A stretch of DNA of 27,807 nucleotides. It comes from a virus. Made by a program: the position numbers and the translations under genes. Below are positions 12,313 to 27,009 of the stretch, one piece after another (the first letter of the stretch is position 1; each line of letters opens with the position of its first letter). The notes beneath the pieces are model-generated. The model was not told the DNA's origin. It ran no database searches and saw only the letters and a program-made list of their open reading frames with translations. The stretch spans positions 1 through 27,807 of the IMG/VR virus record IMGVR_UViG_3300027741_000218. The stretch is one strand, 5' to 3'.

Positions 12313-12508
12313 TTGGCTTAACCCTCCCAAAGGTGACGTTGTCCTCAGCCTTTATCATCTGGTTTTTCCATGTCCAGCACTGACCGTCAGCCTCAAAGCA
12401 AACCCATAGTAAATCATGTTCTGCGCCATAATCAATCAAGACATGTGCCAAGGCCCGACCCTTGGGTGTCTCTACCGGGATTGGTGGGTTCAGTTGTATC
12501 ATCATCAT
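12302..12508 (-). CDS. Conserved small phage protein, unknown
   Basis: 68 aa. The start has three consecutive ATG codons with AAAGG seven bases upstream of the first. The core motif (IPVETPKGRALAHVLIDYG, then EHDLLWVCFEADGQCWTW) is one I recall from many alphaproteobacterial phages, usually as hypothetical protein; it looks like a small SH3-like or beta-barrel fold. No function is known to me. It overlaps the gcrA-like gene at an ATGATGA junction, so the two are probably translated together. Confidence 0.6.
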   Translation of the reverse strand: MMMIQLNPPIPVETPKGRALAHVLIDYGAEHDLLWVCFEADGQCWTWKNQMIKAEDNVTFGRVKPNAG

Positions 12509-12939
12509 GATCTAGCCTTTAGAACAAATACGGTATCTGTATACCTAGGACGGCGAGGTATAACCTTGACATAGCAGAGAGCGTGGTGGGTCTTGCAATA
12601 GCTTTTAGTCGTCACTGGCTCTCCACAAAAACGGAAGTACCGTGGGTGGTCTCCATCAATGACAAATTTGCATGTTTTAAGCGTCAGGCTCTCAAATGGA
12701 ATGCCAACTTGGCTTTCTGGCTCGGCATCGAGTTCTTCCTCAACCGGCATAGCCACTGGAATTCTAGCAACCGCAGTTTTGGGAAATGCCCTAGCCTCAA
12801 CATCAACGCCCTTCTTCCGCATCCGGTTTACCCGGCCAATGACAGCGTTTCTGGTAAGGCAGAGGATCGAGCCAATTTGACTGGCGCTAAGTTTTTCACC
12901 CCATAGACGTTGGATTTCATTATCAAGATCATTTGACAT
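12505..12939 (-). CDS. gcrA: GcrA-family cell-cycle regulator homologue encoded by phage
   Basis: 144 aa. GcrA in alphaproteobacteria binds sigma-70 RNA polymerase and activates promoters carrying methylated GANTC. Here the N-terminus has the family HTH (EIQRLWGEKLSASQIGSIL, then TRNAVIGRVNRMRKKG; residues 8-44) and the C-terminus the conserved Cys/His block: LTLKTC (Cys90), FRFCGEP (Cys105), SYCKTHHALCY (Cys115, His118/His119, Cys122), matching the sigma-interacting domain. The length is slightly below cellular GcrA. The linker (residues 50-84) is Pro/Glu-rich and variable, as expected. GGGAG precedes the ATG, and a terminator-like hairpin lies just upstream, so expression may be attenuated. 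Family assignment is firm; target promoters are inference. Confidence 0.88.
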   Translation of the reverse strand: MSNDLDNEIQRLWGEKLSASQIGSILCLTRNAVIGRVNRMRKKGVDVEARAFPKTAVARIPVAMPVEEELDAEPESQVGIPFESLTLKTCKFVIDGDHPRYFRFCGEPVTTKSYCKTHHALCYVKVIPRRPRYTDTVFVLKARS

Positions 12940-12949
12940 AGCTATCTCC

Positions 12950-12978
12950 CAAAAACGAGGCGGCTGTTGTGTGCCGCC
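12950..12978 (-). terminator. Intrinsic terminator/attenuator upstream of gcrA (minus strand)
   Basis: Read on the minus strand, GGCGGC, an 8-nt loop and GCCGCC (12978-12959) are followed by TCGTTTTT. This perfect 6-bp GC stem with a U-tract lies in the 46-nt gap between the DUF6378-like gene and gcrA, so it would limit readthrough into gcrA and the genes after it. Confidence 0.7.
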
Positions 12979-12985
12979 CCTATGC

Positions 12986-13339
12986 TTACTTTGATGCCTT
13001 TTCCGCCAGAGTGATGTCCAGCAGACTAAGGTCCGTAATTTTTACATCATCCTCTTGCACCGTAGCTTCCTCCGGGAAGACAGAAGAAAATTGAGCTGCA
13101 AACGCCAGATAGTTAATGACGTCAATGTAGCTGTCGTCCTTAGTCGGAGATGCCTGAATTCGAGCCAATTTTGTGGAAACGTGAACCATTGCAACCTCAA
13201 AGGGAGTGATTTGTGCCCCTAGAAGAAGGGATGCGATCTTGGAGATGTTATCAAAACACACCTCTACGTTTCCGTACTGTAGACCCCTCTCCTGTAGGGT
13301 AATTATTGCTTGGCTTAAAATGTCCTTGTGATTCGTCAT
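12986..13339 (-). CDS. DUF6378-type phage protein
   Basis: 117 aa from the ATG at 13339, preceded by GGAAAGAG at good distance; the frame is open further upstream to 13381, but that part has no family signal. The domain begins QAIITLQERGLQYGNVEVCF and continues DNISKIASLLLGAQITPFEV, AMVHVSTKLARIQ and DDSYIDVINYLAFAAQF, the arrangement I associate with DUF6378 proteins of phages (YG near the N-terminus, a Lys/Arg-rich helix, a D-S-W/Y-x-D motif). The function of the family is unknown to me. The coding region starts inside the 3' end of the preceding gene (89-nt overlap in another frame). Confidence 0.7.
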   Translation of the reverse strand: MTNHKDILSQAIITLQERGLQYGNVEVCFDNISKIASLLLGAQITPFEVAMVHVSTKLARIQASPTKDDSYIDVINYLAFAAQFSSVFPEEATVQEDDVKITDLSLLDITLAEKASK

Positions 13340-13595
13340 TTGCATCTCTTTCCATTTCAAAGAATTCTTGGGCCTTGCCAATGTGGGCTGTGTTCAGGAC
13401 AATGTCCCCACGGTCTTCCCATGCCGTATCGTTGTTGGGTGTCCTGCGGCGATAGTACAAGCGCCCGGTGATGAATTCATCCATATTCATAGCGTCTTTA
13501 AGTTGATCGCATGAATCCACCGGAATTTCGACCGTCAATTGATGGACCAAAAAGCCATTAGCACTCGGCATGTTCATCGTAAGAAGAAAGCGCAT
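13251..13595 (-). CDS. Conserved phage protein, unknown
   Basis: 114 aa. AAGGAACTGTA precedes the ATG at 13595. The N-terminus (MRFLLTMNMPSANGFLVHQL) is familiar from small phage proteins near recombination genes; later GRLYYRRRTPNN and RGDIVLNTAHIGKAQEFFEM complete the recognisable domain. The last 31 residues lie in the overlap with the DUF6378-like gene and are low-complexity and basic (ending TVRKRRGVF). They may be an extension gained by loss of an earlier stop. No catalytic motif is seen. Confidence 0.6.
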   Translation of the reverse strand: MRFLLTMNMPSANGFLVHQLTVEIPVDSCDQLKDAMNMDEFITGRLYYRRRTPNNDTAWEDRGDIVLNTAHIGKAQEFFEMERDANDESQGHFKPSNNYPTGEGSTVRKRRGVF

Positions 13596-16964: not shown

Positions 16965-17492
16965 ATGGGAAAACGATCTGACTTTGAAAGAAAAGAACTA
17001 GATTTTTATCCAACCCCTATGGAAGCCGTCAGGCCATTAATTCCGTATCTACCATTAAAGTCTACATTCTGTGAGCCGTGCGCAGGAGCCGGTCATTTAA
17101 TTCGTCACCTTGAATCATTGGGGCATCAATGCGTGTCGGCCTTCGACATCCGGCCATTGGCTGAAAATATCCGGCAGCATGATGCCTCTTGGATGGCATG
17201 GGACGATCTGAATGATGCTGACTTTGTCATTACGAATCCACCGTGGGAGAGACCTGTTCTTCATCAAATCATAGAGCGATCTGCTCGGCTGAAGCCAACG
17301 TGGCTACTTTTTGATTCGGACTGGGCATTCACCAAACAGGCTGGACCCTATCTCGAAATGTGCCGGAAGATTGTTACAGTCGGGCGCGTAAAGTGGATTG
17401 AGGGGTCTGACAATACCGGCATGGACAACTGCTGTTGGTATCTGTTCGACATCCATAGCGTAGGTCAGCCAACGGAGTTTTATGGTAAATGA
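16965..17492 (+). CDS. Orphan DNA adenine-type methyltransferase (NPPW)
   Basis: 175 aa. Class I SAM methyltransferase motifs: LDFYPTPMEAVRPLIPYL at the N-terminus, motif I STFCEPCAGAGHLIRHLE (residues 33-50), acidic FDIRP at 60-64, and the catalytic NPPW at 91-94. NPPW indicates amino methylation, most likely N6-adenine. It is compact and has no separate target-recognition domain, as in phage-encoded orphan enzymes without a paired nuclease. The target sequence cannot be read from sequence; host-type GANTC is one possibility but unproven. It starts 1 nt after the RusA stop and overlaps the next gene by ATGA. Confidence 0.8.
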   Translation: MGKRSDFERKELDFYPTPMEAVRPLIPYLPLKSTFCEPCAGAGHLIRHLESLGHQCVSAFDIRPLAENIRQHDASWMAWDDLNDADFVITNPPWERPVLHQIIERSARLKPTWLLFDSDWAFTKQAGPYLEMCRKIVTVGRVKWIEGSDNTGMDNCCWYLFDIHSVGQPTEFYGK

Positions 17493-18551: not shown

Positions 18552-20021
18552 ATGGAACTCAGAGGTTACCAGAAAGATACGATCACCAAGCTTCGTGGGT
18601 CATTGGCATCAGGCAAGCGCCGCCCGGTTGTTCAGGCGCCCACTGGCTCGGGCAAGACGGTCATTGCGGCTGAGATCGTCAACATGGCCCGGAACAAGGG
18701 TAAGCGAGTTATTTTTGCGGTGCCGTTCCTGTCGCTGATTAACCAGACGATTGACCGTTTCATGCAGAACGGGATTTTCGATGTTGGCGTCATGCAGGGC
18801 CAGCACGAATTGACGGACCCCAGCAAGCCGGTTCAGGTCTGCTCAATCCAAACTCTGGCTAGGCGGGATATTCCCAAGGCCGATTTGGTTATTATCGACG
18901 AGTGCCATTCCCGGTACAGGTTTCTGGATAGCTGGATGATTGACCCCGATTGGGTTGATGTCCCGTTCATTGGCCTGACTGCTACTCCGTGGGCTAAGGG
19001 CATGGGTGCTGAAGGCCGTTGGGACGACTTGATTGTCTGCACTACGACTTCAGAGCTGATCGAGCAGGGAACCCTGTCAGACTTCAAGGTCTTTGCACCG
19101 TCCCACCCCGACCTGACCGGGGTTCAAATCCAAGCCGGTGATTACAAGATTGACCAACTCGGTGTCGCAATGGACAAATCGGCACTGGTGGCCGACATCG
19201 TCAGTACATGGCTGGCACGGGGTGAGGACAGGCCGACCGTCGCGTTCTGCGTCAACCGTCTCCATGCCAAGCACGTTCAGCAGGAGTTCGTTAAGGCTGG
19301 GGTCAATGCGGCCTACATGGATGCGTTTACGGATATTGAGGAGCGAGACGCCATTGTCAGGCAGTTCGGGCAGGGTGACGTTCGGATCATCTGCAACGTG
19401 GGGGTTTTGACTACCGGGTTCGATGCTGACGTTCGGTGCATCATTCTGGCTAGGCCAACCAAGTCTGAAATCCTGTACACCCAGATGATTGGGCGGGGTC
19501 TCAGGACAGCGGACGGCAAGACAAACTGCCTAATCTTGGATCACAGCGACACGACCCTGAAGCTGGGGTTTATCACTGACATCCACCACGATACGCTCGA
19601 TGACGGCAAGTCGGCCAAGAAGGTTGCGTCCAAGCCAGAGGTTTTGCCGAAAGAGTGCCCGCAATGTTCGTTCCTGCGCCCTCCAAAAGTTAGCCAGTGC
19701 CCAGCTTGCGGGTTCAAGCCAGAGCCCAAGAGTCAGATCGAGTGCGATGACGGTGAGCTGGTCGAACTCAAGCGAGGCCAAAAGGTCTCTCGGTCATTGA
19801 GCGTTGAGGATAAGAAGCTGTTCTATGCCGAGTTGCAGCGCCATGCGTATCTGCGTGGATATAAATCCGGGTGGGCTTATCATGCCTATAAGGATCGCTT
19901 TGGGGTGGGGCCAGCAAGTTCATTCTCAGCTACGGCGTCTTTAGGGATCAGGGCAGAAACCCAGAACTGGATCACTTACCGAGCTATCCGCCAAGCTAAA
20001 TCGAAGGGGCCAAAGAAATGA
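18552..20021 (+). CDS. SF2 DEAD/DEAH-box helicase with C-terminal zinc finger
   Basis: 489 aa. Walker A APTGSGKT at 29-36, motif II DECH at 116-119, motif III TAT at 143-145 within FIGLTATPWAKG, and motif VI QMIGRGLRT at 311-319. After the two RecA-like lobes, Cys369, Cys372, Cys383 and Cys386 (CPQC...CPAC) form a zinc knuckle, and the last 90 residues are basic and helical. This arrangement is common in phage replication helicases of the RecG/UvsW/RAD25-like type, likely opening or remodelling branched DNA at the origin. AAAGGTAGAGAGAG precedes the ATG. The stop overlaps the primase start (ATGA), so they form a pair. Confidence 0.88.
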   Translation: MELRGYQKDTITKLRGSLASGKRRPVVQAPTGSGKTVIAAEIVNMARNKGKRVIFAVPFLSLINQTIDRFMQNGIFDVGVMQGQHELTDPSKPVQVCSIQTLARRDIPKADLVIIDECHSRYRFLDSWMIDPDWVDVPFIGLTATPWAKGMGAEGRWDDLIVCTTTSELIEQGTLSDFKVFAPSHPDLTGVQIQAGDYKIDQLGVAMDKSALVADIVSTWLARGEDRPTVAFCVNRLHAKHVQQEFVKAGVNAAYMDAFTDIEERDAIVRQFGQGDVRIICNVGVLTTGFDADVRCIILARPTKSEILYTQMIGRGLRTADGKTNCLILDHSDTTLKLGFITDIHHDTLDDGKSAKKVASKPEVLPKECPQCSFLRPPKVSQCPACGFKPEPKSQIECDDGELVELKRGQKVSRSLSVEDKKLFYAELQRHAYLRGYKSGWAYHAYKDRFGVGPASSFSATASLGIRAETQNWITYRAIRQAKSKGPKK

Positions 20022-20941
20022 AATCAACTCATGAAATGGCACGGGGGCGATGGAGCGAGTTGCTTCCCCATTTGGGGGTAGATGCCTCGTTCTTGAAAAA
20101 CACTCACGGACCATGCCCTATCTGCGGGGGTAAGGACCGCTTTCGCTGGGACGATAAGGATTCCAAGGGTGGATATATCTGCTCTGGTTGTGGCTCCGGG
20201 GATGGGTTCAACCTCGTTCAGAAGGTCACAGGCAAGGGCTTTCCGCAGATTGCGGCTGAAATAGACGCTTGGCTAGGCCGGACATTTGCAGGAACTCCGG
20301 GGTATCTCCCCAAGCCTGTGGGTGAAGAGGAAGACCAGCGCAAAGCCATGATCCGGGTATGGTCTGAATGCTCGAAACCAACCCCGACAACCCCAGGCGG
20401 CATCTATATGGCCAGCAGGACGGGCGGAGACGGGGTCTGGGCGGGCTTTATGGAGCACTGGGGGGTTAGGGTAGCCGGGACCACTCATCCGGCCTTGGTG
20501 GGCAAAATAGCGAGCTTTGAGGGAAAGGCAGTCAACCTTCACCTGACGCTGCTAACGAACGGTGGTCAGAAGGCCAATGTCGAGCCGTCCAAGCGGGTCA
20601 TGAGGGGCAAGCTGCCAGATGGTTGTGCAATCCGCATCGGAGAGGCTGGGCCAATCATGGGGGTAGCCGAGGGCGTTGAGACAGCCGTGTCGGCCTCGAT
20701 CATGTACGGTATACCCGTATGGGCTTGCGTTAACGGAACCTTGCTCTCGAAGTGGATGCCACCAGCCCTAGCCAAGGAGATCGTTGTGTTTGGGGACAAT
20801 GACCGGAACTTCGCTGGTCAGGCCAAGGCCTACGCGCTGGCTAATCGACTTGAGGTGATCCACAAGCGCAGGGTTACAGTTGAAATACCGGACATGCCGG
20901 GTTCTGACTGGAACGATGCGCACCAATCAATGTTGGTTTAA
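20018..20941 (+). CDS. DNA primase with zinc finger and TOPRIM domain
   Basis: 307 aa. The N-terminal zinc-binding module is HGPCPICGGKDRFRWDDKD with His30, Cys33 and Cys36, then YICSGCGSGDG with Cys55 and Cys58, of the phage P4/T7-like type. The TOPRIM core follows: IMGVAEGVETAVSA with Glu218, then EIVVFGDNDRNFAGQAKAYA with Asp260 and Asp262, and PGSDWND near 295-300. No helicase domain is fused, so it would work with the SF2 helicase gene just upstream or with a host replicative helicase. It primes synthesis on opened DNA. It ends 11 bp before a bidirectional terminator. Confidence 0.92.
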   Translation: MKSTHEMARGRWSELLPHLGVDASFLKNTHGPCPICGGKDRFRWDDKDSKGGYICSGCGSGDGFNLVQKVTGKGFPQIAAEIDAWLGRTFAGTPGYLPKPVGEEEDQRKAMIRVWSECSKPTPTTPGGIYMASRTGGDGVWAGFMEHWGVRVAGTTHPALVGKIASFEGKAVNLHLTLLTNGGQKANVEPSKRVMRGKLPDGCAIRIGEAGPIMGVAEGVETAVSASIMYGIPVWACVNGTLLSKWMPPALAKEIVVFGDNDRNFAGQAKAYALANRLEVIHKRRVTVEIPDMPGSDWNDAHQSMLV

Positions 20942-21927: not shown

Positions 21928-22518
21928 TCATCCCCATTGTTGAGCCATTGCTTCAGCTATTCCGTCATAGGTCAGTGACCGCTTGGCCCACCTATCGGCA
22001 GACGGTCCCAGTTTATTCTGCCCCGAATCAGTTTGGTTCCCCCAACGCATCCTGCCGTTCACGATCCTTGGGTCGATCAGCGCGGTGGGCATCAGCTTGG
22101 GTAGCCCCTTGAGCCAGAGACAGGTTGCCTTGCTGGCATCATGTCCGAATTCAAAAGGTTGAATAATCTGATCGGGTTTACGCCAGCGAGTAGACAGGCA
22201 CCCAATCGGGTTCTTGATACAGATTCGCGGGATATCCGCAGCAGCTAGGTCCATGACAAACCGGATAGCGTCCCCTGTCATCTCGGCCCGCTCTGGACGG
22301 CGTGTGTTCCAATGCAAACCGGAGGAGGACAGGTAGGTGCAAGGCGGGTGGGCAACCATCAAGTCCCACCCGCTATGGATCACATCCAGAATGTCGCCTT
22401 GGTAATGCGGCCCCGGCTTCTCTGTGGGAAGGAGGTCACAGGACATAGCGTCATGGCCCTTACGGAGAAAAGCATCACGCACCGTCCCGGAAAACTCGCA
22501 AGCAATCAGTACGCGCAT
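21928..22518 (-). CDS. Cytosine-methyltransferase-like phage protein
   Basis: 196 aa. GGGAGAG precedes the ATG. The N-terminus MRVLIACEFSGTVRDAFLRK and GHDAMSCDLLPTE follow the SAM-binding motif I/II of DNA methyltransferases. HPPCTYLSSSG at 57-67 holds a Pro-Pro-Cys that matches motif IV, where Cys is the catalytic residue in C5-cytosine enzymes. Later IKNPIGCLSTRWRKPDQII resembles the E/KN-type motif with variation. Phage proteins of this form are commonly annotated as DNA cytosine methyltransferase, although the short length leaves no large target-recognition domain. No nuclease partner is seen. Protection of phage DNA is inferred. Confidence 0.75.
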   Translation of the reverse strand: MRVLIACEFSGTVRDAFLRKGHDAMSCDLLPTEKPGPHYQGDILDVIHSGWDLMVAHPPCTYLSSSGLHWNTRRPERAEMTGDAIRFVMDLAAADIPRICIKNPIGCLSTRWRKPDQIIQPFEFGHDASKATCLWLKGLPKLMPTALIDPRIVNGRMRWGNQTDSGQNKLGPSADRWAKRSLTYDGIAEAMAQQWG

Positions 22519-23278: not shown

Positions 23279-23404
23279 GTCCTTGGTCCACTCTCGGTCC
23301 ATCGGTCCATCCTCGGTCCATCGGTCCACTCTCGGTCCATCGGTCCATCCTTGGTCCATTGGTCCATCAGCGGTCCATTGGTCCCTTGGTCCCTTGGTCC
23401 ATCC
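23279..23404. repeat. 19-bp tandem-repeat array built from GGTCCA units
   Basis: Units begin at 23294, 23313, 23332, 23351 and 23370 with consensus TCGGTCCATCGGTCCATCC; the first three are nearly identical, later ones diverge, and partial units flank them. Each unit contains two GGTCCA blocks. All reading frames through it are open only because it is repetitive. It could be an iteron, operator or centromere-like array. Confidence 0.85.
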
Positions 23405-23589
23405 AACTTTTTGGTCCGCCCTGGAATTTTTGGAAAAACTCATTTTGGTTTTAAAAACCCATTATGGGGCTGGCTGCCCATTATAGGGCCGGCAGCTCAT
23501 ATTGAGCGCAAAAACCCATTTTAGGTATATGTGACGGGTTTTGGTAAGCCTGGCCAGGTGTGGGCCGATTCGCTTAAAATGAGCTTGTC

Positions 23590-23625
23590 GTTAACCTGTT
23601 CGCTGCGCGAACATTAACTTTTTTT
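23590..23625 (+). terminator. Terminator-like hairpin in the leader region
   Basis: GTTAA and TTAAC enclose GTTCGC-TGC-GCGAAC, then seven T residues follow. No plus-strand gene lies close upstream, so it may end a short RNA starting near 23.5 kb or stop stray transcription before the cassette. Confidence 0.6.
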
Positions 23626-23701
23626 GTGCGATGCGAAAAGGTTAATAATCGCCCCGGAATGGACTAAACCGCTCATAATGGGTTTTGAGCTTGGAATCCG
23701 T

Positions 23702-23730
23702 TTGGCTGCAATGCGGCGCATATATATAAA
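23702..23730 (+). promoter_or_regulatory. Promoter of the 23769-26198 cassette
   Basis: TTGGCT at 23702-23707, 17-bp spacer, TATAAA at 23725-23730 within TATATATAAA. A GAATC lies just upstream at 23694-23698, so promoter activity may depend on GANTC methylation. Confidence 0.5.
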
Positions 23731-23768
23731 GAGCGAGCCGGAATAATCCGGTAGGAAAGGGGAATAAG

Positions 23769-25220
23769 ATGGCTACCTTTCAAGTGATCGAATCAGAAAC
23801 GGGAGTCGTTCTGGCGTCTTTCGATACGCAAGCCTTGGCTCAAATGGACGTGGCAGTGCGTACTGTTGCGGGAGCGCGAGTCTTTTTTAAAAGAGCTCCT
23901 GACATGCAATGGCGAGTACGGGAATGCGCGCGCTTTCTTTCCGGCCAATATAAACCCGTTATATGGTCTAATGAGCATTGGTTTATAAACCGAGACGAAA
24001 GCTTAGTCTGTCATTATTTGCATCGCGCTACCGCTCACAATCTTGTGGCGTTTACGGAGTCGAATCAGAAAGGTGAACAAGACAGGCAAACTGTTATGAA
24101 ACCGGGAGTCTATTTAACACGCTTCTTTTCTAATGTTTTGACCGTGCACGAAATAGAACACTATGCACGACTCCATTGCATGCAACCCGGCAAAGCTTGC
24201 GACATTAAATTCGCGATAAGCGCGCAGGATATTCAGGACATATACGAGCGTGGCCCTGATTCGTGTATGAGCGGCGACGTTTCCGATTATGAGCCAAAAA
24301 TACATCCCGTTTCCGTTTACGGGGATTCTGATTTGTCTCTCGCTTATATTGAAGGCGAATCGGATTATCACGATAAAGAGATAAAGAGCCGCGCATTGGT
24401 TTGGGCTGAAAGAAAGGTTTATGGGCGCGTTTATCCTACGCCAGAACGATATAGCGACTCGCGGCGCGAAATAGCACGAGTCGAGCAAAACCGGCTTGTT
24501 CAAGCTTTGGAGTCGGCGGGATATCGCCCCGGCTCTTTTAATGGTGCAAAGATTCGTGCAATCCCGCACCGTCGCAATGAAGAGTCGTATGTTATGCCTT
24601 ATCTTGACGGTGGCTATAGTGTCGACTTAGTCGGTGAACATTTTGTGCTGGGTAAACGTGCAAGCTTTGAGGCGCAAACAACTGATGGAATCATCTATCT
24701 AGAAGCACGATTTACTTGTGACAGGTGCGAGGAATCTGCTTGCCCCGACGACGCTAGTTCCGTTCGAGTCGCGCGATATTCGACGGAGTCTTGGTGCGAG
24801 TCTTGCGCCTCGAATAGTAGCTTTTATTGTCACGGGGATGAAGAAACATATTCCGACGAAATTGAATCCGTTTCTGATTCATGCGGAAACAATTATTCGA
24901 TTTATTACGCGTCTGATAACATGTTCCGTTGCGACAATACTGGTTACTGGTATGACAATAGTGAAGCGCAAGACGTATATGTGCGTGGAATCCACGTAGA
25001 AACATGGTGCAGGGACGCGATATTAGAGGACGCGTTTTGCTGCTATGGTACTGGCGTATATTATGCGACTCGCTGGCATGATAGCGTCGAAATAGACGGC
25101 GAGACGTATCTCAAAACATATGCGGAGTCGGAACATGCGCTTTCGACTCGTTTAAAAGAGATAGAACAGGCGGAGGAATATGAGAATATCGCGCATATCA
25201 ATATATATATCGGAGCTTAA
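23769..25220 (+). CDS. Zinc-ribbon, Cys-rich repeat protein of unknown function
   Basis: 483 aa. I do not recognise a named family. Residues 1-310 hold mixed alpha/beta sequence, with HRRNEESYVMPYLDGGYSVD near 267 reading like a small domain. The C-terminal third is Cys-rich: CDRC (Cys317, Cys320) and CESC (Cys343, Cys346) form a likely zinc ribbon, followed by three similar units FYCHGDEETYSDEIE, FRCDNTGYWYDNSEAQDVYV and FCCYGTGVYYATRWHDSVEI, which share F-x-C-x-x-T/D-G-x-x-Y. GANTC sites are unusually dense, in all codon phases. It is followed 3 nt later by the metallohydrolase gene, so the two probably act together. Ribosome site AGGAAAGGGG precedes the ATG. The function cannot be read from sequence. 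Confidence 0.75.
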   Translation: MATFQVIESETGVVLASFDTQALAQMDVAVRTVAGARVFFKRAPDMQWRVRECARFLSGQYKPVIWSNEHWFINRDESLVCHYLHRATAHNLVAFTESNQKGEQDRQTVMKPGVYLTRFFSNVLTVHEIEHYARLHCMQPGKACDIKFAISAQDIQDIYERGPDSCMSGDVSDYEPKIHPVSVYGDSDLSLAYIEGESDYHDKEIKSRALVWAERKVYGRVYPTPERYSDSRREIARVEQNRLVQALESAGYRPGSFNGAKIRAIPHRRNEESYVMPYLDGGYSVDLVGEHFVLGKRASFEAQTTDGIIYLEARFTCDRCEESACPDDASSVRVARYSTESWCESCASNSSFYCHGDEETYSDEIESVSDSCGNNYSIYYASDNMFRCDNTGYWYDNSEAQDVYVRGIHVETWCRDAILEDAFCCYGTGVYYATRWHDSVEIDGETYLKTYAESEHALSTRLKEIEQAEEYENIAHINIYIGA

Positions 25221-25223
25221 ACC

Positions 25224-26198
25224 ATGACAAAAACCATGACAAAAACTAACAGAACGAACGAGTCGGCAAATACTGAATCCTTGTTCTACATGCTTCAAAC
25301 CATGCGGCCGGCAGGATCAAAAACAGAGGAGTCTTTTATTGATCGCTGGATTAAACCATTGGGAACAGAGTCGGACGGATATGGTAATGAAGTTATCCGC
25401 ATAGGGGATTCCCTTGTTATGTATTCATCTCATACAGATACTGTGCATCGCAATGAAGGCTCACAGCGAATCAAGATCGCGAATGGATGGATTAGCTTGC
25501 ACTATAAAGAGCGCCGCGCGTCATGCCTGGGCGCCGATTGCACGGCTGGCGTTTGGCTAATGCGTGAAATGATATTGGCTAGGGCGCCCGGTTTATATGT
25601 CTTTCATCGCGAAGAAGAATCCGGGGGACATGGTTCGCAATGGATCGCGGAAAACAATCCCGGTTTATTAGAGGGAATCGTCGCATGTATCGCGCTAGAT
25701 CGAAAGGGAACGGATAGCATTATAACTCATCAATATGGTGGACGTTGCGCTAGCGATACCTTTGCTGTATCTATGGCCAAGCAATTTAAAGGATTCAAGG
25801 CTGACGATACGGGGTCATTTACAGACTCCGCGAACTACACTCATTTAATCCCGGAATGTACTAATCTTTCTATCGGATATGAGGACGCTCACACTGAAAA
25901 AGAAAGGCTGAATCTGTTTCACCTTATTGAAATGAGAGAGCAATTGATTCGCTTTGATATATCGCGAGTCAATATAAGGCGCGAACCGACTCCTAAGGTC
26001 ACGGCCTTGCCAAGGTGTGACCGTGGCGCTTGGAATGTATGGGATGAAAGGGAGTCGGGATGGGATGGGCGGGACAATAGAGCGGCGCGGAATGTCACAG
26101 AGTTTTGCCGACTCTATCCTGATGAAGTTGCGGATTTGCTAGGGCAATATGGTATCGGTCTTAATGATTTATACGACTCGACTCCTTGGTTAGAGTGA
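25224..26198 (+). CDS. M20/M28/M42-like zinc metallohydrolase
   Basis: 324 aa. A set of ligands typical of cocatalytic two-metal peptidases is in order: SSHTD with His70 and Asp72, LGADCTAGVW with Asp105, FHREEESGGHGS with Glu130-132, ALDRKGTD with Asp159, and EDAHTEKERLN with His223. The order H-D-E-D-H matches M20/M28/M42 aminopeptidase-type enzymes, and the catalytic Glu next to the bridging ligand is present. The substrate is unknown: peptides, amidated cell-wall pieces or a small signalling molecule are all possible. The C-terminal 80 residues (GWDGRDNRAARN, then DEVADLLGQYGIGLNDLYD) are extra to a minimal fold. GGAG lies eight bases before the ATG. The sequence is rich in GANTC. No signal peptide, so cytoplasmic. 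Confidence 0.75.
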   Translation: MTKTMTKTNRTNESANTESLFYMLQTMRPAGSKTEESFIDRWIKPLGTESDGYGNEVIRIGDSLVMYSSHTDTVHRNEGSQRIKIANGWISLHYKERRASCLGADCTAGVWLMREMILARAPGLYVFHREEESGGHGSQWIAENNPGLLEGIVACIALDRKGTDSIITHQYGGRCASDTFAVSMAKQFKGFKADDTGSFTDSANYTHLIPECTNLSIGYEDAHTEKERLNLFHLIEMREQLIRFDISRVNIRREPTPKVTALPRCDRGAWNVWDERESGWDGRDNRAARNVTEFCRLYPDEVADLLGQYGIGLNDLYDSTPWLE

Positions 26199-26224
26199 CG
26201 GGGCGAATCAGGTAGCCGGCGAAC

Positions 26225-26258
26225 AAAGGGGAAGGGGCGACTCTTCCCTTTCTTTTTT
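26225..26258 (+). terminator. Intrinsic terminator after the metallohydrolase gene
   Basis: AAAGGGGAAG (26225-26234) pairs with CTTCCCTTT (26243-26251) with one bulged G, followed by C and six T. It separates the cassette from the terminase small subunit. Confidence 0.8.
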
Positions 26259-26271
26259 GTCTGGCAAAGCC

Positions 26272-26277
26272 TATAAT
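26272..26277 (+). promoter_or_regulatory. Candidate -10 element upstream of the terminase gene
   Basis: A perfect TATAAT, 112 bp before the chosen terS start. No good -35 is seen at 16-18 bp, so either an activator helps or this is one copy of the dispersed CCCATTAT-type motif read on the other strand. Confidence 0.35.
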
Positions 26278-26388
26278 GGGTGCAGATACACCGATATGAG
26301 CACCAGCCATTCTAAGGCATGCTACGCGGCAAAGATTGCGGGAAGCTATCTAGGTATCGGGATAACGATTCAGGGCAAGGCAAGCTTC

Positions 26389-27009
26389 ATGGCTAGGGAC
26401 AAGACCGCAAAGCTATACAAGACTCGCGCTACGACAGGGCAAGAGGCGAATAAAGAAATAGGAGCGCGCCGCGCTGAAATACGGGAAAGCATCAAAGCAC
26501 GCATAGAGAAGGCAAAGGGACGCCCTACTACATTTAATGAGGAACAAGGAATAGAGCTATGTAAATTGATCAGCGAAGGGATGAGTCTAACGGAAGCTTG
26601 CGACTCATTGGGCTTGGCGAGAAGCACGGTGCTCACGTGGGCAGAGAGCGGCAATCAGCCTGCTTTTACGTCGAATCTCGCACGCGCACGGGAAGCCCTG
26701 GCCGAACATGCGTTCTCGGAAGCCTATGCGATACCTCGCAAATTACTGAAACTGTATGAAGAAGACCCTGAATTGAAACTCGATCCTGCACGGGTTCAAC
26801 TGGCAAGGCTCGCAACAGACACTCTCAAATGGTACGCGGAGCGCCTCAAACCCCGCACGTTTGGTGAAAAGAAAATTGAGCAATCTGTTACAATCACGAA
26901 CAATGCGCTTACAATTGACTCCCGCGAGCTATCGCAAGATCAACGTGACGCGCTACGTGGCGCTTTGCTGGCGGCCAAGAACCTACCTGTGACCATAGAT
27001 CACGAGTGA
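26389..27009 (+). CDS. terS: Terminase small subunit (Sf6-like)
   Basis: 206 aa from the ATG at 26389 with AAGG upstream. The frame is open from 26257 (250 aa), but the extra N-terminus lies over promoter-like DNA and lacks family signal. An N-terminal helical HTH domain (NEEQGIELCKLISEGMSLTE, then ACDSLGLARSTVLTWAESGN) is followed by NLARAREALAEHAFSEAYAI, LARLATDTLKWYAERLKPRT and FGEKK. This is the pattern of Sf6/SPP1-type small terminases: pac/cos DNA recognition, oligomerisation helices and a C-terminal large-subunit contact. No large terminase is inside the window; the DNA downstream is non-coding. The inferred role is choosing the DNA packaging site. Confidence 0.8.
   Translation: MARDKTAKLYKTRATTGQEANKEIGARRAEIRESIKARIEKAKGRPTTFNEEQGIELCKLISEGMSLTEACDSLGLARSTVLTWAESGNQPAFTSNLARAREALAEHAFSEAYAIPRKLLKLYEEDPELKLDPARVQLARLATDTLKWYAERLKPRTFGEKKIEQSVTITNNALTIDSRELSQDQRDALRGALLAAKNLPVTIDHE

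Follow-up and report, generated by a model that had tools for sequence, protein, structure and literature searches.

A stretch of about 3 kb that is dense in GANTC sites lies directly upstream of, and runs into, the small terminase gene (TerS) in the 27,807-nt viral DNA analyzed here (IMG/VR record IMGVR_UViG_3300027741_000218; hereafter, the window), and its sequence indicates that this island is most likely under selection. The same window encodes a GcrA-family protein and a putative GANTC adenine methyltransferase (Table 1). The reading favored here, held tentatively and at slightly less than an even chance, is that these features are a reader, a writer, and a target: namely, a methylation island that would switch the late program, most likely packaging. 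The sequences show directly the family membership of the GcrA homologue and the island itself, its conservation with site turnover, its position beside the terminase, its reappearance among phages of an unrelated group, and its co-occurrence with the methyltransferase; from these, we infer the GANTC specificity of the enzyme, methylation of the island GANTC sites, and every functional step.

Table 1. Coordinates of features in the window that bear on the GANTC island, the putative methyltransferase, and the GcrA homologue
Feature	Position	Strand	Basis or remarks
gcrA homologue, putative reader	12505..12939	-	144 aa; PF07750, PDB match, invariant Cys/His
Terminator-like hairpin, GC-rich, between DUF6378 gene and gcrA	12957..12980	-	just upstream of gcrA
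DUF6378 gene, gcrA neighbor, in G011 too	12986..13381	-	PF19905; gene order in L052
Putative GANTC adenine methyltransferase (NPPW), putative writer	16965..17492	+	175 aa; PHROG 799, E 1.7e-39
Helicase and primase genes, downstream of methyltransferase	18552..20941	+	PHROGs 16 and 510
GGTCC tandem array, 19-nt period, just upstream of island	23285..23403		candidate iterons or terminase sites
Promoter-like match, GATTC in spacer at 23567	23551..23580	+	upstream of island genes; not above chance
GANTC island, putative target	23567..26677		53 sites, 17.0/kb versus 2.0/kb elsewhere
483-aa Cys-rich protein gene, island gene 1	23769..25220	+	PHROG 6980; 26 GANTC, shuffle mean 13.6
Zinc-peptidase-like gene, island gene 2	25224..26198	+	PHROG 4191; 18 GANTC, shuffle mean 10.6
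Small terminase (TerS)	26257..27009	+	PF20901, PHROG 1482; 6 GANTC

An earlier note on this DNA had pointed to a GANTC-rich cassette, and this was strongly confirmed: the island consists of two genes running into TerS. GANTC is not enriched over the whole window (103 sites versus 107.9 expected), being depleted in positions 1-23500 (48 versus 89 expected) and about 4-fold enriched in positions 23501-26700 (53 versus 13.8 expected); the log-likelihood ratio of the island is 50.7, and the largest value among 60 random placements was 12.4. When compared to synonymous shuffles, which preserve the protein and its codon usage, the island genes have a GANTC z-score of 7.6 both in the window and in the related contig G001, the top value in the palindromic 4-mer, 2N2, and 2NN2 classes tested for these two. 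The top z-scores listed for non-palindromic motifs were no higher than 6.1 and belong to GAGT and GACT in G001, both of which overlap GANTC. General palindrome richness was rejected as an explanation: ATAT, CGCG, and others are also raised, but GANTC alone is strong among palindromes under synonymous shuffles. The sites occupy all three frames and every site context is distinct; thus, the island is not a repeat array. Helical phasing among the island sites was looked for and none was found. The 483-aa protein gave a structure model with a pLDDT of 81 and a pTM of 0.40, and this model had no PDB matches at E≤0.001. As the GGTCC array does in the window, GGWCC clusters lie near the island of G001.

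The island is conserved as a density of sites with turnover, not as a set of fixed sites. In G001 (45,413 bases), the same island holds 51 sites (20.0/kb), and its two genes share 74% and 84% amino acid identity with those of the window; the aligned genes contain 44 sites in the window and 48 in G001, of which 28 are shared, 16 are private to the window, and 20 are private to G001. In a scan of 40 peptidase loci (272 confirmed, 80 kept; mostly ~6 kb either side covered), islands were found in L083, L084, L085, L087, L088, and L091, with weaker ones in L086 and the truncated L114. The high site density persists in L084, L085, and L088, where the first gene is 43-45% identical to that of the window, and in L091, although its first gene is 27% identical; across these four loci, GANTC z-scores are 4.2-6.2 in the first gene and 4.0-6.0 in the peptidase gene. 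Islands of L086, L087, and L114 are weaker by the same measure (z -0.6 to 2.3), and L119 is ambiguous (8.0/kb inside the gene versus 4.5/kb outside). Among genome loci, 29 of 44 were scanned, and L323, L324, and L330 carry islands. Milder islands in G011, G012, and L021 (6.8-7.5/kb versus 1.1-1.5/kb) lie upstream of or in TerS and cover different genes. The primase query returned no relatives in viral_contigs.

In the Pasto and BDU-MI-1 records, homologues of the Cys-rich and zinc-peptidase gene pair are found close to the beginning. These pairs have no island and hold GANTC below the shuffle expectation, and the genes themselves were therefore rejected as the cause of the island. Outside the island, GANTC avoidance is general among these phages and has been reported for pelagiphages (PMC9516812). 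It is extreme in MW202675 (L017, L019; 2 sites versus 285 expected) and G030 (1 versus 130). Clusters of 64-104 GGNCC sites were also seen in G011 (48946-52653), G026, and G007 and are perhaps Gly-Pro coding repeats, which is a guess.

A comparable island occurs in an unrelated phage group. In Roseobacter phage CRP-6, positions 42433-44886 hold 38 GANTC sites (15.5/kb versus 0.7/kb elsewhere) directly upstream of, and on the same strand as, gp65 and the large terminase gene (TerL); gp65 has no Pfam hits and is a putative TerS by its position alone. Searches of CRP-6 gp66-gp69 against the window island genes found no significant similarity (best E 0.09), and 17 of the CRP-6 island sites fall in stretches without annotated genes. 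The CRP-6-type set comprised 80 loci, of which 56 were analyzed and three were dropped for having <700 bp upstream, leaving 53. Of these, 36 exceed 6 GANTC sites per kb upstream of TerS-TerL (a threshold of our own choice), 14 are at ≤1.4/kb, and three lie between (L303, L312, and L319); from TerL onward, the median is 0.86/kb. Inside the CRP-6 island, gp68 (L241:7219-8025) encodes a GP88-family protein (PF17338), homologues of which were found in the island contigs G094 and G088 and were not found in G098, G097, G102, or the island contig G092.

A swap of GANTC for another methylation motif was also considered, in a comparison of all 14 loci that lack an island with 18 of the 36 that have one. 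Upstream of TerL, the 14 island-less loci gave CCNGG counts of 172 versus 9.2 and CGCG counts of 51 versus 1.7. Motif swapping was rejected on the per-locus distribution, in which strong CCNGG falls in a dense cluster of ~200-350 bp, six of the 14 loci hold 1-3 CCNGG sites, and CGCG varies from 0 to 6 per locus. Several of the CRP-6-type phages that lack a GANTC island have dense CCWGG clusters ahead of TerL; such clusters, the GGTCC array of the window, and the GGWCC clusters of G001 are candidate iterons or terminase sites.

The putative writer belongs to PHROG 799, carries the NPPW/F/Y motif of this group, and precedes the helicase and primase genes, in agreement with the reported location of CcrM-like phage methyltransferase genes upstream of replication genes (PMC5537653). 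It is 49% identical to AMO44073 of phage DSS3P8, which appears in a list of CcrM-like phage enzymes, some putative and some confirmed (PMC5537653, Fig. 3 legend). The GANTC-specific phiLM21_p027 also falls within PHROG 799 and shares with AMO44073 and the window enzyme the NPP motif and the position upstream of replication genes; direct similarity between the window enzyme and this experimentally confirmed protein is, however, weak (28% over 143 aa), and the GANTC specificity of the window enzyme is putative. The enzyme belongs to a family other than PF01555, for which none of 19 records had a match. A second putative DNA methyltransferase (PHROG 757) is encoded at 21928-22518 on the minus strand.

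The methyltransferase was found in six of 39 records, of which G000, G011, G036, G038, and G040 all carry an island; the sixth, G004, is a 7.4-kb fragment from the same metagenome as G001 that contains gcrA and no island. Island records without the enzyme (G001, G006, G012, G037, G039, and G041) may be fragments. One contig assigned to a 'beta proteobacterium' MAG, L324, also combines peptidase, island, and methyltransferase. Within the CRP-6 type, CRP-6 itself (enzyme gp24) and G094 have the enzyme as well as an island, while in G098 and G102 the gp23 and MazG genes are adjacent, the slot between them holds no enzyme, and there is no island; since four slots were readable, two present and two absent, this pairing is only suggestive. 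The enzyme is not sufficient for an island, because Mel-JY03 has a 55% identical enzyme and no island, and seven other phages (RW, RHph_I3_18, RHph_Y52, HMSP1, PBC5, Labrenzia V1, and phiLM21) have a related enzyme and likewise no island. Caulobacter phage RW (L194-L197) and Labrenzia phage V1 (L205, L206) carry a GcrA-like match in addition to the methyltransferase.

The protein encoded at 12505-12939 is a member of the GcrA family, as the earlier note had proposed, and it has both expected regions. The Pfam GcrA profile (PF07750) matches residues 8-125 with 50.8 bits (E 3.2e-13; curated cut-off, 26.9 bits), and a PDB search matched Caulobacter crescentus GcrA (7ye1_G, E 4e-7), the GcrA DNA-binding domain (5yiu, E 0.0014), and, weakly, the sigma-interacting domain (5yix, E 0.85). 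In the PDB alignment, TRNAVIGRVNRM of the phage protein is paired with TRNAVIGKVHRL of C. crescentus GcrA, the helix-turn-helix (HTH) cores being nearly identical; an N-terminal HTH with a TRNAVIGKVHRL-type region is thus present, as is the C-terminal Cys/His sigma-interacting block, in which Cys90, Cys105, Cys115, and His118 are invariant across an alignment of eight GcrA proteins. The two proteins share the HTH core TRNAVIG.V.R, a linker, and the Cys/His block, but are 31% identical in the alignment, are 173 (C. crescentus) and 144 aa long, and differ in that the window copy is phage-borne. Confidence in the AlphaFold2 model is confined to the HTH (residues 1-50; block pLDDT 79-91), with the C-terminal Cys/His part folded without confidence, and a fold search with this model returned generic HTH proteins. 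Because the protein is a family member with both regions, a role at sigma-70 and methylated GANTC is predicted from the family.

Placement of gcrA in an early operon, also proposed in the earlier note, is plausible from the gene order on the minus strand, where it follows genes for Erf, a YqaJ-type exonuclease, HNH, and DUF6378 proteins. Against it stands the terminator-like hairpin immediately upstream of gcrA, read from 12980 to 12957; terminator-like sites number 24 in the window versus 16.5 expected, not far above chance. In the relative G011, the gcrA flanks look alike as read from the order of open reading frames (ORFs), with HNH, a 124-aa ORF, and a DUF6378-like ORF. The GANTC noted earlier in a promoter spacer does exist upstream of the island genes, but promoter-like matches in the window are at chance (14 found versus 17.0 expected), and by their coordinates one of the 14 has GANTC in its spacer. 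The gcrA gene itself contains no GANTC site.

A phage-encoded GcrA is a known kind of gene and carries no novelty. The homologue gp222 of phage phiCbK was described in 2012, together with the proposal that phage GcrA pushes the host into, or holds it in, a replicating state (PMC3556154), and a table entry places gcrA in Sinorhizobium meliloti prophages as well (PMC12429752). Caulobacter GcrA was matched in 34 of 50,697 GenBank phage records, and the PF07750 profile was found in the window and in 4 of 5, 2 of 30, 0 of 3, 5 of 40, and 6 of 14 records of further sets. Like the window protein, gp222 and the other phage homologues belong to PF07750; phiCbK, however, belongs to another phage group, and its GANTC-richer stretch is weak (6.1/kb versus 1.3/kb). 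In G043, of which the first 60 kb were covered, 11 GANTC sites fall within 1 kb (28015-29052) near gcrA (30382-30831). The suspected link between GcrA and the GANTC cassette has indirect support: a putative methyltransferase is present and the trio of GcrA, methyltransferase, and island occurs in four records (G000, G011, G036, and G038), but GcrA and island each occur without the other. GcrA is found without an island in G035, RW, Labrenzia V1, RHph_X2_24, and Ssp-JY42, and a search of CRP-6 for PF07750 found none, so that GcrA is not required for the island arrangement. Overall, the island is accompanied by a methyltransferase and a terminase more consistently than by GcrA.

In the favored reading, the phage methyltransferase would act with host CcrM to methylate the island once phage DNA has been replicated, and whether this patch beside the terminase genes is methylated would serve as a switch for the late program. 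The step most likely to be switched would be the start of packaging, as with Dam methylation at the pac site of phage P1. The latter is a short site, far smaller than the GANTC island. P1 pac with Dam/Dmt resembles the present arrangement in having a methylation motif at the packaging region and a phage-encoded methyltransferase, but pac uses GATC, whereas the island uses GANTC and spreads ~50 sites over 2.5-3 kb of coding DNA. In the island-bearing phages, the motif cluster lies at or beside the terminase genes (CRP-6 TerS by position only); a phage methyltransferase gene occurs with it in several of them and is putatively specific for the island motif. P1 packaging requires Dam methylation at pac (PMC12707154), and because both island-bearing relatives of the window and the unrelated group carry a putatively matching enzyme, methylation marks may help control packaging. 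In its binding, GcrA prefers fully methylated GANTC over the hemimethylated and unmethylated forms (PMC3667746); the phage GcrA could therefore read the same mark for transcription, and GcrA-sigma70 would possibly couple it to expression of the cassette and terminase.

Other readings were weighed against this one. That host promoters are the sole targets of the phage GcrA, with no connection to the island, is a substantial though doubtful possibility, since it is the published proposal for phiCbK (PMC3556154) and agrees both with the five GcrA-bearing phages that lack an island and with the CRP-6 island that lacks GcrA; the co-occurrence of GcrA, methyltransferase, and island in four records speaks against it. 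A transcriptional role, in which methylated GANTC recruits GcrA-sigma70 to drive or time the cassette and terminase, would suit the binding preference of GcrA (PMC3667746) and the single upstream promoter-like match with GANTC in its spacer. We consider it unlikely, as the sites are spread over 2.5-3 kb instead of being placed at promoters, promoter-like matches are at chance, and CRP-6 has no GcrA of its own, though its host may have one.

The lack of positional phasing, the ~50 sites per genome, and their presence in coding and noncoding DNA alike would also be expected if many GANTC-dense copies titrated the CcrM or GcrA of the host at a late stage of infection; such a sponge is rather unlikely, having no need for a terminase-side position and giving no reason for GANTC avoidance across the remaining genome. 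Protection by methylation of the first-entering phage DNA end from restriction is improbable: in favor are the location of the homologous genes early in the Pasto and BDU-MI-1 records and the scarcity of GANTC elsewhere, which points to selection against unmethylated sites, but extra sites would leave the DNA more exposed to a GANTC nuclease, not less, and Pasto and BDU-MI-1 have no island. Finally, the base composition and other 4-mers of the island differ from the remaining window, as they would if it were a by-product of codon or amino acid composition, of repeats, or of recent acquisition from GANTC-rich DNA. This explanation is very hard to sustain given that GANTC exceeds synonymous shuffles with all contexts distinct, and that the island is maintained across deep divergence and in unrelated CRP-6-type phages.

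Whether the island represents a new phage element is judged an even call: it would be a terminase-side methylation island of 2.5-3 kb, shared by two or more unrelated phage groups of alphaproteobacterial type, gained or lost with a small CcrM-like methyltransferase, and imposing selection that shapes the proteins it overlaps. What appears new is the local reversal of GANTC avoidance beside the terminase. Among the portions of the literature on GANTC clusters or terminase in phages that were consulted, no published terminase-side GANTC islands were found, and one study reports that predicted GcrA sites were positioned asymmetrically in none of the phage subsets analyzed (PMC9437464). CcrM-like methyltransferases are common in alphaproteobacterial phages, some of which also encode GcrA; in the parts of the literature examined, no target of these proteins on a phage genome was found described, and the island offers a concrete one. 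Its motif is that of host cell-cycle methylation, and the island, if such an element, would make packaging or late gene expression depend on methylation of the CcrM type, which in some members a phage GcrA would read. Because CRP-6 has been isolated and its host is in culture, this role is directly testable: namely, methylation-gated packaging or late transcription.
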